Source of the DNA: Thermoleophilum album
Lineage (GTDB): Bacteria; Actinomycetota; Thermoleophilia; Solirubrobacterales; Thermoleophilaceae
Assembly: GCF_028867705.1 (NCBI RefSeq)
Contig: NZ_CP066171.1
Span: forward strand, 434,001-498,000
Length of the DNA stretch: 64,000 bases
Direction: 5' to 3'
Position numbers and translations under genes: made by a program. Below, one piece after another: positions 14,687-41,992 of the stretch. Position 1 is the stretch's first letter, and the number at the start of each line of letters is the position of its first letter. The notes beneath the pieces were generated by a model. The model worked only from the letters and a program-made list of their open reading frames with translations. It was not told where the DNA came from and ran no database searches.

Positions 14687-15478
14687 GTGTCGAGCGACCG
14701 CGCTGCCGCCTTCTTCGATCTCGACAAAACGCTGCTCGAAGGCTCCAGCGCCTTCTATTTCGCACGGGCGGCGTTCGAGAGCGGCATGCTCTCGCGCCGC
14801 CAGCTGGCACGCGATCTCGTCGCCAACCTCGCCTTCCGTCTGCGCGGATCGACCGACGAACAGACCGAAGCCGTCAAGCGGCGTGTCCTCGACGCGATCG
14901 CCGGTCAGCGCCAGCGCGACCTGATGCGTCTCGGCCCGCGCGTGTTGAGCAGCGTCTTGCCGCGCCTCTACCCGCAGATGCTCGAGGAGGCGTGGAGCCA
15001 TCAAGAAGCCGGCCGCAAGGTCTACATCGTCACCGCCGCCGCGCAGGAGCTCGCTGACGCGCTCGCCCACGTTCTCGGTTTCGACGGTGCCGTTGGCATG
15101 CGCGCGGAGGTCGAGGGGGGTGTCTACACCGGGCGCCTCGCCGGCCCCTTCACATACCGCGAAGGCAAGGCGGAAGCGATCCGGGAGCTCGCCGCGCGCG
15201 AGGGCTTCGACCTCGAACGCTCGTTCGCCTACTCGGACTCCGAGTCGGATCTGCCGATGCTCAGAGCGGTAGGCAATCCAGTGGCGGTGAACCCCGACAA
15301 GGAGCTCGAGCGCATCGCCCGCGCCGAGGGTTGGCGGATCATGCGTTTCGACAGGCTCGCGCTCAAATTGCGCCTGGGCGCTGCGCTCGCCACGGCGGCC
15401 GCGGGCGGGGCGTGCGCCGCACTCGTCGTGCGGCGGGCACGACCGCGTCGGCGGTGGCGGGTGCTCGCGCGTGTCTGA
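14687..15478 (+). CDS. HAD subfamily IB phosphatase with C-terminal membrane segment
   Basis: A 263-residue SerB-like HAD-IB hydrolase. Motif I is FFDLDKTLLEG, with nucleophile Asp and acid/base Asp (residues about 10-20); motif II is the TAAAQE region; motif III and IV are covered by REGKAEAIREL and SDSESDLPML. A hydrophobic Ala-rich segment near 238-252 followed by Arg residues may anchor the protein to the inner membrane face. Family members act on phosphoserine, phospholipid head-group or other small phosphates; the substrate here is not known. It overlaps the next gene by eight bases, implying coupled translation with the GH63-like glycosidase. Confidence 0.85.
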   Translation: MSSDRAAAFFDLDKTLLEGSSAFYFARAAFESGMLSRRQLARDLVANLAFRLRGSTDEQTEAVKRRVLDAIAGQRQRDLMRLGPRVLSSVLPRLYPQMLEEAWSHQEAGRKVYIVTAAAQELADALAHVLGFDGAVGMRAEVEGGVYTGRLAGPFTYREGKAEAIRELAAREGFDLERSFAYSDSESDLPMLRAVGNPVAVNPDKELERIARAEGWRIMRFDRLALKLRLGAALATAAAGGACAALVVRRARPRRRWRVLARV

Positions 15479-39365: not shown

Positions 39366-40556
39366 GTGGGTGTGCGCGACGCGATTGGGGCATTCGCGGT
39401 CGCGACGGTCGTGTCCTGGCTCGCGACGCCGGTGAGCGCCCTGCTCGCGCGACGCGTCGGCGTGATCCACGTGCCGCGCGAGCGCGACCTTCACGAGCGC
39501 CCGACTCCGGGGCTCGGGGGTCTGGCGATCCTCGCTGCGGTGCTCGTCGCCACGGCTGTTTTCTTGCCGCTGCGGGGGGAATACCTGGGGATCCTCGCCG
39601 GTGCCGTGGCGATCACCCTGCTCGGTGCGGTCGACGATCGCGTCGATCTGCACCCGGCGGCGAAGCTCGCCGGCCAGACAGCCGCCGCGACGCTGCCGGT
39701 CGCGGCGGGCGTGTACGTCGACCACGTGACGCTGCCGTTCCTGGGCGCGTTCGACCTCGGACCGGCCGGTCCGCCGCTGACGGTGATCGGCGTTGTCGCG
39801 GTCGTGAACGCCGTCAACTGGACCGACGGGGTGGACGGGCTCGCCGCCGGCGTGTGTCTGATCGCTGCCCTGACCTTCGCCGTGCTCGCCCTGTCGCTCG
39901 ACCGCGACGCCGCCGGTGTTCTCGCTGCACTGACGGCCGGTGCGGCGGCGGGCTTTCTCTGGCACAACTTCCACCCGGCGTCGGTGTTCATGGGCGACGC
40001 CGGTTCGAACCTGCTTGGTTTGCTGCTGGCCTGTGTCGCCATCCAGGGGGTGCTCAAGACAGCGGCGGTGGTGGCGCTCTTTTTCCCGCTGATGGTGCTC
40101 GCCGTTCCCGCTGCCGACGCCACGTTCGTGATCGCCAAGCGCATCAAGTACCGGCGGCCGGTGTACTCCGCCGACCGCTGGCACTTCCACCACCGCTTCG
40201 CGAACATCGGTTTCTCGCAGCGACGGACAGTGCTCTACCTGTACGGGTGGTCGCTGTCGCTCGCAGCGCTTGCGCTCGCCTTGCGCTTCGTGCCCTACTC
40301 GGACGAGGCGGGCCGCCTCCACCCGGGCTGGTCGGCGGTGCTCGGAGTTTTCGCGCTCGTGGCGCTGGTGGCGAGCGTCTATGTCGTCTACGTCCTCGAG
40401 ATCCTCAAGTTCCGTCGTTGGCGCGAGCGACAGCTGCGCCGTCAGGTCGAGACAGGGGAGATCCCGCCGCTGTCGGCCGACCAGATCGAGCGCGAGATCG
40501 CTCGCGAGATCGAGACGGGCGAGTTCGAGGCGGTGGGCGGAAACGGTCGCGGCTAG
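39366..40556 (+). CDS. undecaprenyl-phosphate N-acetylglucosaminyl-1-phosphate transferase (WecA/TagO type)
   Basis: A 396-residue polytopic enzyme of the MraY/WecA superfamily that starts surface-polymer synthesis by moving a sugar-1-phosphate onto undecaprenyl phosphate. About ten hydrophobic segments are visible. RDLHERPTPGLGGLAI is the N-terminal block; LGAVDDRVDL is the DDxxD-like magnesium motif; NAVNWTDGVDGLAAG is the NxxNxxDGxDGL block; FMGDAGSN and the cytoplasmic HFHHRFANIGFS His motif complete the set. The C-terminal 40 residues are charged and cytoplasmic. The last 152 bases overlap the antisense radical SAM gene. In actinobacteria it would serve cell-wall glycan linkage. Confidence 0.92.
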   Translation: MGVRDAIGAFAVATVVSWLATPVSALLARRVGVIHVPRERDLHERPTPGLGGLAILAAVLVATAVFLPLRGEYLGILAGAVAITLLGAVDDRVDLHPAAKLAGQTAAATLPVAAGVYVDHVTLPFLGAFDLGPAGPPLTVIGVVAVVNAVNWTDGVDGLAAGVCLIAALTFAVLALSLDRDAAGVLAALTAGAAAGFLWHNFHPASVFMGDAGSNLLGLLLACVAIQGVLKTAAVVALFFPLMVLAVPAADATFVIAKRIKYRRPVYSADRWHFHHRFANIGFSQRRTVLYLYGWSLSLAALALALRFVPYSDEAGRLHPGWSAVLGVFALVALVASVYVVYVLEILKFRRWRERQLRRQVETGEIPPLSADQIEREIAREIETGEFEAVGGNGRG

Positions 40557-41466
40557 CGGCGAGCGCGCGCAGCAACCGCTCCCGCTCGTTGCGCGGCAGG
40601 TAGGCGCCGCGCGCGTACAGCTGGGTGTAGCGAGCGACGAGCTCGGGTCGCTGTTCGCCGAGCCAGGCGAAGAAGAGGTCGCGCAGCTCGCCGCGAAGGT
40701 GGAGCGGAATGCCAACTACGCGCGTCGCACCAGCCTCGCGGGCCGCTTCGACGACGGCCTCGATCTGGCGGGGTGCGTCGTTGATGCCGGGCATCAGCGG
40801 CGCGACCATGACGGTGGTCGGGATGCCGTTGCGCGCCAGTTCGGCTACCGCCTCGAGGCGGGCGCGGGGGTGGGGAGTGTGCGGCTCGGTTGCCCGCCAG
40901 GCGCGCTCGTCGACGGTTGGGATCGAAAGTCCAGCCTCGAACCCGGGACCGGCCGCGAGCTCCCGGAAGAAGCGCAGGTCGCGAAGCAGCAGCGGCGACT
41001 TCGTTAGCAGGGAGGCAGGTGTGGCGGAGTCGCGCAGCGCTTCCCAGATTCCCGGCAGGAGGCGGTAGCGCGCCTCGGCCCACTGGTAGGGGTCGGTGTT
41101 GGTGCCGAGCGCCACCGGTTCGCGGCACCAGTCGGCCCGCAACAGCTCGGCGCGTGCGAGCTCGGGGGCGTTGACCTTGACGACGATGCGACGCTCGAAG
41201 TCGCGGCCCGGGTCGAGGTCGAGGTAGCGGTGCGAAGGCCGGGCGAAGCAGTAGACGCAAGCGTGAGTGCAGCCGCGGTACGGGTTGATCGTCCAGCGAA
41301 ACGGAAGCCGCGAACGCGTCGGCACGCGATTGAGCAGCGAGCGCGCCCGCACCTCGAGAAAGCGCACGTCGGCGGCCGCCGGCGGATCGAAGTGGCGAAA
41401 GTCGGCGGCGCTCTCGAGGCCGGGTAGGGCCGGTTGGCGGTCGGTGGTCAGCGTGCGCCAGCGCAC
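40405..41466 (-). CDS. Rv2578c-type radical SAM protein (SplB/COG1533 class)
   Basis: A 353-residue radical SAM enzyme. C66-T-H-A-C70-V-Y-C73 is the CxxxCxxC [4Fe-4S] motif, preceded by WTINPYRGC. KVNAPELARAEL, ALGTNTDPYQ and TLLTKSP-like ASLLTKSPLLLRD blocks place it in the COG1533 group, which includes spore photoproduct lyase; the reaction here is not known. The GTG at 41466 begins RWRTLTTDRQPALPGL, matching the group's usual start; the longer frame to 41541 is less likely. A LexA-type box directly abuts this start. The C-terminal 50 residues, Arg/Ser-rich, overlap the wecA gene on the other strand. Confidence 0.9.
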   Translation of the reverse strand: MRWRTLTTDRQPALPGLESAADFRHFDPPAAADVRFLEVRARSLLNRVPTRSRLPFRWTINPYRGCTHACVYCFARPSHRYLDLDPGRDFERRIVVKVNAPELARAELLRADWCREPVALGTNTDPYQWAEARYRLLPGIWEALRDSATPASLLTKSPLLLRDLRFFRELAAGPGFEAGLSIPTVDERAWRATEPHTPHPRARLEAVAELARNGIPTTVMVAPLMPGINDAPRQIEAVVEAAREAGATRVVGIPLHLRGELRDLFFAWLGEQRPELVARYTQLYARGAYLPRNERERLLRALAASRDRFRPPPRTRPSRSRERSRARSGRPTAAGSPLSRPDGAAVARANDGT

Positions 41467-41479
41467 GAACAGATGTTCG
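41466..41479. promoter_or_regulatory. LexA/SOS box (CGAAC-AGAT-GTTCG)
   Basis: The 14-base site is a perfect fit to the Gram-positive/actinobacterial LexA box CGAAC-RNRY-GTTCG. It directly abuts, and shares one base with, the GTG start of the radical SAM gene. A LexA bound here would block transcription of that gene. Confidence 0.72.
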
Positions 41480-41572
41480 CATCGCTGTCGGACGGCGCCG
41501 CCGCGACGTCCGTGCGTTCCACGGCCCGCCGTCTGCGCCAAGCCCTCGCCGCGCGCACGCAGCGCGAGGCGT

Positions 41573-41992
41573 TCACTCGCCGAACACGGTCACCACCACC
41601 GTGCGCGTGCCGCCGTGGTCGCGGTGCTCGCACAGATAGATCCCTTGCCAGGTGCCCAAAAGCGGCTCGCCGTCGGCGACCGGGAACGACACCGAGCTGC
41701 CGAGCAGGCTCGCCTTTATGTGCGCCGGCATGTCGTCGGGGCCTTCGAGGGTGTGCGAGAAGTAGGCGGCACCGTCGGGGACGGCGCGGTCGAACCAGCT
41801 CGCGAAGTCGCGCCTTACGTCGGGACTGGCGTTCTCGTTGAGCGTCAGCGCAGCCGAGGTGTGGCGGATGAAGATGTGCACGATTCCGACCCGCAGCTGG
41901 CGGATCTCCGGCACCGCGGCGAGCACCTCGTCGGTGACGAGATGGAAGCCGCGCGGGCGCGGTCGCAACCGCAGTGTGCGCTGGAGCCACAT
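41573..41992 (-). CDS. YjbQ/UPF0047 family protein (secondary thiamine-phosphate synthase-like)
   Basis: A 139-residue protein. GIVHIFIRHTSAALTLNENASPDVRRDF is the family signature; the histidines of HIFIRHTS and later HTLEGPDDMPAHIK bind metal. The C-terminal LGTWQGIYLCEHRDHGGTRTV block is also canonical. E. coli YjbQ shows weak thiamine-phosphate synthase activity, but the biological role is not settled. A TAAGTT box seven bases before the ATG suggests a leaderless message. The gene is divergent from the c-di-GMP enzyme genes. Confidence 0.92.
   Translation of the reverse strand: MWLQRTLRLRPRPRGFHLVTDEVLAAVPEIRQLRVGIVHIFIRHTSAALTLNENASPDVRRDFASWFDRAVPDGAAYFSHTLEGPDDMPAHIKASLLGSSVSFPVADGEPLLGTWQGIYLCEHRDHGGTRTVVVTVFGE

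Follow-up and report, generated by a model that had tools for sequence, protein, structure and literature searches.

A LexA Box on the Start Codon of an Rv2578c-Type Radical SAM Gene in Thermoleophilum album: Conservation, Promoter Context, and a Candidate Role in DNA Repair

The Radical SAM Gene and Its LexA Box

We analyzed a window of 64,000 nucleotides of the Thermoleophilum album genome (contig NZ_CP066171.1, positions 434,001 to 498,000), in which a radical S-adenosylmethionine (SAM) gene of the Rv2578c/PA0069 type starts on a perfect match to the LexA box. Positions are those of the window unless they carry the prefix C1, which marks genome positions. The gene and the elements of its promoter are the following.

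40405-41466, minus strand: Rv2578c/PA0069-type radical SAM gene (COG1533-like), 353 amino acids from GTG, identified by NF038135, PF04055, and a conserved MRW start
41466-41479, no strand assigned: LexA (SOS) box CGAAC-N4-GTTCG, exact match, at the same place in orthologs
41473-41478, minus strand: predicted -10 hexamer GAACAT inside the LexA box, proposed from its spacing (TAnnnT occurs at the same distance in the lexA and recA promoters of the order)
41489-41493, minus strand: GTCCG element 9 nt upstream of the box, candidate "-26-like" element of PafBC (GTC-N12-GAACAT)

The gene product matches the NCBIfam family rSAM_Rv2578c (NF038135) over its full length (379 bits, E = 1.4e-113, positions 2-309 of 317); this is by far its best family, and the Pfam Radical_SAM domain (PF04055) is also found, with 48.9 bits. 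Because the profile match begins at position 2, on the residue that directly follows the GTG, this start codon is well supported. Relatives begin with M/V-R-W at the equivalent place, some of them with ATG. The GTG is not preceded by a Shine-Dalgarno sequence.

The palindrome at 41466-41479, CGAAC-AGAT-GTTCG, reads CGAACAGATGTTCG on the forward strand and CGAACATCTGTTCG on the minus strand, which is the strand of the gene. The preliminary description of the locus gave its position, letters, and symmetry exactly and placed it against the start codon; the two share one base, as the final G of the box (41466) is the first base of the GTG (41466-41464).

Conservation of the Box among Orthologs

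Perfect copies of CGAAC-N4-GTTCG number two in the window and 10 in the genome of 2.11 Mb, versus 8 for a reversed control palindrome. Count alone could not exclude a chance occurrence, which was ruled out by the position of the box across orthologs. The second copy in the window (15214-15227) lies inside a HAD-like gene and is probably a chance match.

The family has matches in 57 of 149 genomes of the class and in 141 of 296 genomes across the phylum; as the ortholog sequences are related, the counts that follow are not independent trials. A box with at most one mismatch lies just before the start in all of the 30 best class orthologs and in 18 of 20 further class members, the remaining two being distant paralogs without a box. 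Among named actinobacterial orthologs (from Mycobacterium, Nocardia, Rhodococcus, Gordonia, Arthrobacter, Microbacterium, Kribbella, Nocardiopsis, Solirubrobacterales, and others), 65 of 74 have it near the start with at most one mismatch and all 74 with at most two, the background, taken from the remaining sequence of these loci, being 0.027 expected hits per 330-nt region. The position of the box across orthologs is far beyond chance. Its absence from the upstream regions of orthologs, which the preliminary description had named as evidence against LexA control, is thus not what one finds.

Phylum-wide, the box or a close variant is present in most of the upstream regions taken, the variant of Streptomyces-like genomes being GGAAC-N4-GTTCT; one family with a different N-terminus has no box. 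The bases that flank the box are not conserved among orthologs. Conservation of coding sequence was rejected as the cause of its persistence: the distance from box to start is not constant, an in-frame stop separates the box from the ATG in one relative, and other families have the box well upstream. The genome-wide count is what one would expect of a chance palindrome, and the site could also be the operator of another regulator, but throughout the phylum it keeps its position and sequence, and lexA and imuB-dnaE2 have it too, so that we regard either origin as extremely improbable.

The LexA Regulon in the Genome and in the Order

This genome encodes a LexA protein that has the DNA-binding and S24 domains. 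Among 31 genomes of the order, lexA is preceded by the same box in 30, and the sole exception is this genome. Its recA has at best a remnant with two mismatches, CGAAAGTACGTCCG. The imuB-dnaE2 cassette, on the other hand, has a perfect box at its start, and the box at the radical SAM gene is perfect in both members of the genus (L030 and L020). The perfect boxes at the radical SAM gene and at imuB therefore indicate selection there, though lexA and recA lost theirs. Judging from these promoters, LexA appears to have released lexA and recA in this genus while retaining the radical SAM and mutagenesis genes.

The control by LexA put forward in the preliminary description is strongly supported by the box at orthologs, at the lexA genes of the order, and at the imuB-dnaE2 cassette of this genome. 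The same description had held that a different box at lexA and recA would speak against its reading; no different box was found there, but neither promoter has a recognizable one.

The lexA gene of the congener (L198, fetched separately) also has no box. Apart from this gene and that of the present genome (upstream region at C1:669649), all lexA genes examined in the order have it, which indicates that the autoregulation of LexA was lost at the level of the genus. The full-length recA is at C1:1098288; a second recA-like frame (C1:135934-136782) lacks the first ~63 residues and looks like a truncated copy or a fragment. Several relatives have the radical SAM gene and either recA or lexA together on one contig, no more than ~5-20 kb apart.

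Promoter Architecture and PafBC

A TTGAC -35 element precedes the box in Actinomycetia, including mycobacteria, and the start codon follows it, which is the classical position for a repressor. Another family of the class has TATGAT-like -10 elements 3′ of the box, and 6-7 nt separate these from the start. In the order to which the window belongs, the box has slid onto the start codon. The GAACAT hexamer lies 6 nt before the GTG, and this spacing suggests that the transcript from this promoter is probably leaderless.

Of 21 order-level orthologs, 12 have a GTCYR element (GTCCG or a close variant) at a distance of exactly 9 nt upstream of the box; in 4 others the distance is 13 nt. The lexA promoters of the order contain GTCCG-N9..11-TAnnnT in 24 of 31 cases (shuffle mean 0.22), and the recA promoter of this genome contains GTCCG-N10-TACCTT. 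The spacing of 12 between GTC and TAnnnT is shared with mycobacterial RecA-NDp/PafBC promoters (GTC-N12-TAnnnT). The stricter pattern CCGTCCG-N10-TAnnnT has three hits in the genome and none for the control; it was tried as a marker of the regulon and set aside, three hits being too few. The genome encodes a PafB-PafC fusion of 695 amino acids with two WYL and two WCX domains and HTH_PafC. PafBC may also activate the promoter through the GTCCG element. Dual control by PafBC, through the RecA-NDp/PafBC motif, and by LexA exists at some mycobacterial genes (PMC8223512, PMC6789036), and the present promoter resembles theirs in joining a candidate activating damage element to a LexA box. It differs in that the predicted element reads GTCCG and PafB and PafC are fused.

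One could go further and regard PafBC as the main control, the LexA box being secondary or decaying in this genus. The lexA and recA promoters, which lost their boxes yet retain the GTC-N12-TAnnnT spacing, would fit such a scheme, as would the element fixed at 9 nt from the box in the 12 orthologs and the presence of the fusion protein. However, the box at this gene is perfect in both members of the genus, as is the one at imuB in this genome, and we find this scheme rather improbable; repression by LexA, with PafBC as a candidate additional activator, is the arrangement considered in the following.

Two other sites in the genome join similar elements to an open frame. At C1:986652-986690, GTCCG-N10-TAnnnT is followed by a perfect LexA box, in an arrangement that resembles the lexA promoters of the order; the box contains an ATG that opens a frame of ~90 amino acids, a candidate small SOS gene or RNA. 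The perfect box at C1:767151-767164 has an internal ATG that opens a frame of ~190 amino acids without assigned family.

Fold and Chemistry of the Enzyme

Two motifs characterize the protein among its orthologs.

41248-41271, minus strand: CxxxCxxC motif of the [4Fe-4S] cluster (C66, C70, C73), invariant in 22 and in 106 aligned orthologs
41083-41106, minus strand: family signature GTNTDPYQ (residues 121-128), near-invariant in 106 orthologs

The AlphaFold2 model of the gene product (mean predicted local distance difference test score 78) has spore photoproduct lyase as its top match by Foldseek. VIA-align also ranks this enzyme first (Z = 20.1, root-mean-square deviation 3.2 over 272 residues), and NifB is the next-best family (Z = 15.2). 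Spore photoproduct lyase structures (4FHC-4FHG, 4K9R, 4RH0) align over 267-278 residues with Z between 19.4 and 20.1; the likeness thus covers nearly the whole protein and includes the CxxxCxxC cluster. The next-best folds are pyruvate formate-lyase (PFL) activase, NifB, maturases of ribosomally synthesized and post-translationally modified peptides (RiPPs), and lipoyl synthase. At the sequence level, identity with spore photoproduct lyase is only 14%-16%, and a sequence search of solved structures finds this enzyme with E = 0.12 at best; it was the comparison of folds that decided the match. Unlike the lyase, the present enzyme is not linked to sporulation.

Only three cysteines are invariant in the 106 orthologs, and all are cluster ligands. 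Spore photoproduct lyase has a fourth cysteine (C140/C141) that finds no counterpart in these aligned sequences, the GTNTDPYQ region included; for the Bacillus enzyme, C141 is essential (PMC3742179). Because the lyase needs this fourth cysteine and it is absent here, the enzyme is, on the basis of the modeled fold, like spore photoproduct lyase in structure but not in mechanism. A true spore photoproduct lyase, which reverses 5-thyminyl-5,6-dihydrothymine, would account for the closest solved fold and for the SplB annotation found in the SOS literature (PMC3323433, PMC8565304); given the missing cysteine and the very weak sequence similarity, such an identity is highly improbable.

The C-Terminal Tail

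A C-terminal peptide of the β-clamp-binding type (QLTLL, QATLF, QPTLF, QLSLF) ends 47 of 58 orthologs (shuffle mean 0.8, maximum 5), and 51 of 73 named actinobacterial orthologs have a clamp-like tail. Among α-proteobacterial relatives, which are on plasmids, four of five end in clamp-like peptides (QLSLF, QLRLF, QLTMF, QLSLL), and GTTC-N7-GTTC boxes are found upstream in four of the five examined. Phage homologs are few and distant. The ImuB of this genome has a QLPLAG motif, and the β-clamp motif of mycobacterial ImuB, QLPLWG, is proven (PMC10421592). The likeness with ImuB, an SOS-induced protein, lies in a Q-L-x-L peptide of the clamp type in a protein predicted to be SOS-controlled, the difference being that here the clamp-like motif forms the very C-terminal end and the protein is a radical SAM enzyme. 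In the literature searched, which leaves most subscription journals outside, we found no link of the Rv2578c family to the clamp, and neither the clamp-like tail nor the box-on-start geometry.

The situation differs in the genus of the window, where two features overlap.

40405-40556, minus strand: 3′ tail of the radical SAM gene, which replaces the clamp-like tail of relatives; antisense to the end of the convergent gene, with the same overlap in congener L020
39366-40556, plus strand: convergent MraY/WecA-like glycosyl-phosphotransferase gene, an open frame named by eye without a family search

The tail is missing in the window protein and in that of the congener because the end of the gene overlaps the convergent gene. 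The clamp tail has been lost in this genus, so that its members must either recruit the enzyme in another way or not recruit it at all.

A Candidate Role in DNA Repair

The following mechanism may be proposed. In undamaged cells, a LexA dimer would cover the predicted -10 element, the transcription start, and the start codon, and thereby block RNA polymerase. DNA damage would induce the RecA-stimulated self-cleavage of LexA and free the promoter, with PafBC possibly adding activation through the GTCCG element. The product would most likely repair or modify a damaged DNA base by 5′-deoxyadenosyl-radical chemistry, and the sliding clamp could recruit it to stalled forks, as for ImuB and DinB. 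Of this scheme, computation shows the box and its conservation, its presence also at lexA genes of the order and at imuB-dnaE2, the fold, and the tail of the family, whereas LexA binding, repression, the leaderless start, the input of PafBC, and the DNA substrate are inferred.

We consider it likely that the site is the LexA operator of an SOS-controlled radical SAM gene, whose product would probably act in the repair of DNA lesions. The repair function suggested in the preliminary description is supported indirectly, by the SOS co-regulation, the fold of the model, and the clamp-like tail of most orthologs; it falls short of proof, and by mechanism the enzyme, without the fourth cysteine, is no spore photoproduct lyase. 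Several points weigh against this reading. The palindrome occurs genome-wide at chance frequency, and by count the site is not special. With 379 bits, the protein scores under the curated NF038135 cut-off of 430, but none of the 149 class genomes searched exceeds this value, from which one concludes that the cut-off is tuned to Actinomycetia. The promoters of lexA and recA have no recognizable LexA box, which makes for an unusual SOS circuit. The window protein and that of its congener are without the clamp-like tail. Finally, SOS regulons also include genes whose action is not on DNA.

In an alternative, the LexA-regulated enzyme acts in the damage response on a protein, an RNA, or a metabolite. 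Radical SAM chemistry is diverse, and the next-best folds are those of PFL activase, NifB, RiPP maturases, and lipoyl synthase; the literature found does not describe the reaction of the family; and the fourth cysteine of the lyase is missing. However, it is spore photoproduct lyase that matches over the whole length (Z of 20 vs. 15), and the clamp-like tail is retained across phyla, so that we consider a non-DNA substrate unlikely, if worth serious attention. Returning to repair of DNA, a more specific proposal is that of a phylum-wide, SOS-induced, and clamp-tethered radical SAM enzyme that would repair a DNA lesion by a chemistry other than that of spore photoproduct lyase. We advance it tentatively and give it slightly less than an even chance. 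If true, it would amount to a widespread and overlooked pathway of direct reversal or base modification in Actinomycetota, with relatives in Proteobacteria. Roughly half of the actinobacterial genomes that were searched, mycobacteria included, have the family, and its genes are among those that carry a LexA box most consistently in the phylum; a clamp-like tail on the fold of spore photoproduct lyase without its key cysteine would predict a radical SAM repair enzyme recruited to forks.

Relation to Known SOS-Controlled Genes

LexA/SOS control of COG1533 genes called splB is reported for α- and β-Proteobacteria (PMC3323433), for "several species" and for Bacteroidetes (PMC8565304), and genes of the SplB-like kind are found together with ImuB-C genes (PMC3765255). 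As here, these are SplB-like radical SAM genes under a lineage-specific LexA box. In contrast with them, the box of the window is of the Gram-positive type and, in this order, lies on the start codon, and the gene belongs to the Rv2578c rather than to the PA0069 subfamily. In Streptomyces venezuelae, the radical SAM gene vnz_31145 is induced 20-fold by mitomycin C and has a LexA peak by chromatin immunoprecipitation, with a reported box TCGACCGTTCGCTC at -61 (PMC9380542). It is likewise an actinobacterial radical SAM gene, but its box differs from the GGAAC-N4-GTTCT of Streptomyces-like orthologs, and it may or may not be the same gene. That SOS control of a COG1533 member would be new is therefore only partly right. 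The marking of the Rv2578c family by a LexA box throughout the phylum, as suggested by the upstream sequences, was not found in the open literature. Nor did we find a paper that pairs Rv2578c with LexA, though M. tuberculosis LexA-regulon papers in subscription journals may already list the gene.

Neighboring Gene and Split Orthologs

Upstream of the radical SAM gene lies one further gene.

41573-41992, minus strand: YjbQ/UPF0047 gene (PF01894, 138 bits)

In nine of the orthologs, the radical SAM gene is a frame of 500-900 amino acids in which the family match is split. Such frames are consistent with inteins, and NCBIfam has an intein-containing Rv2578c model.
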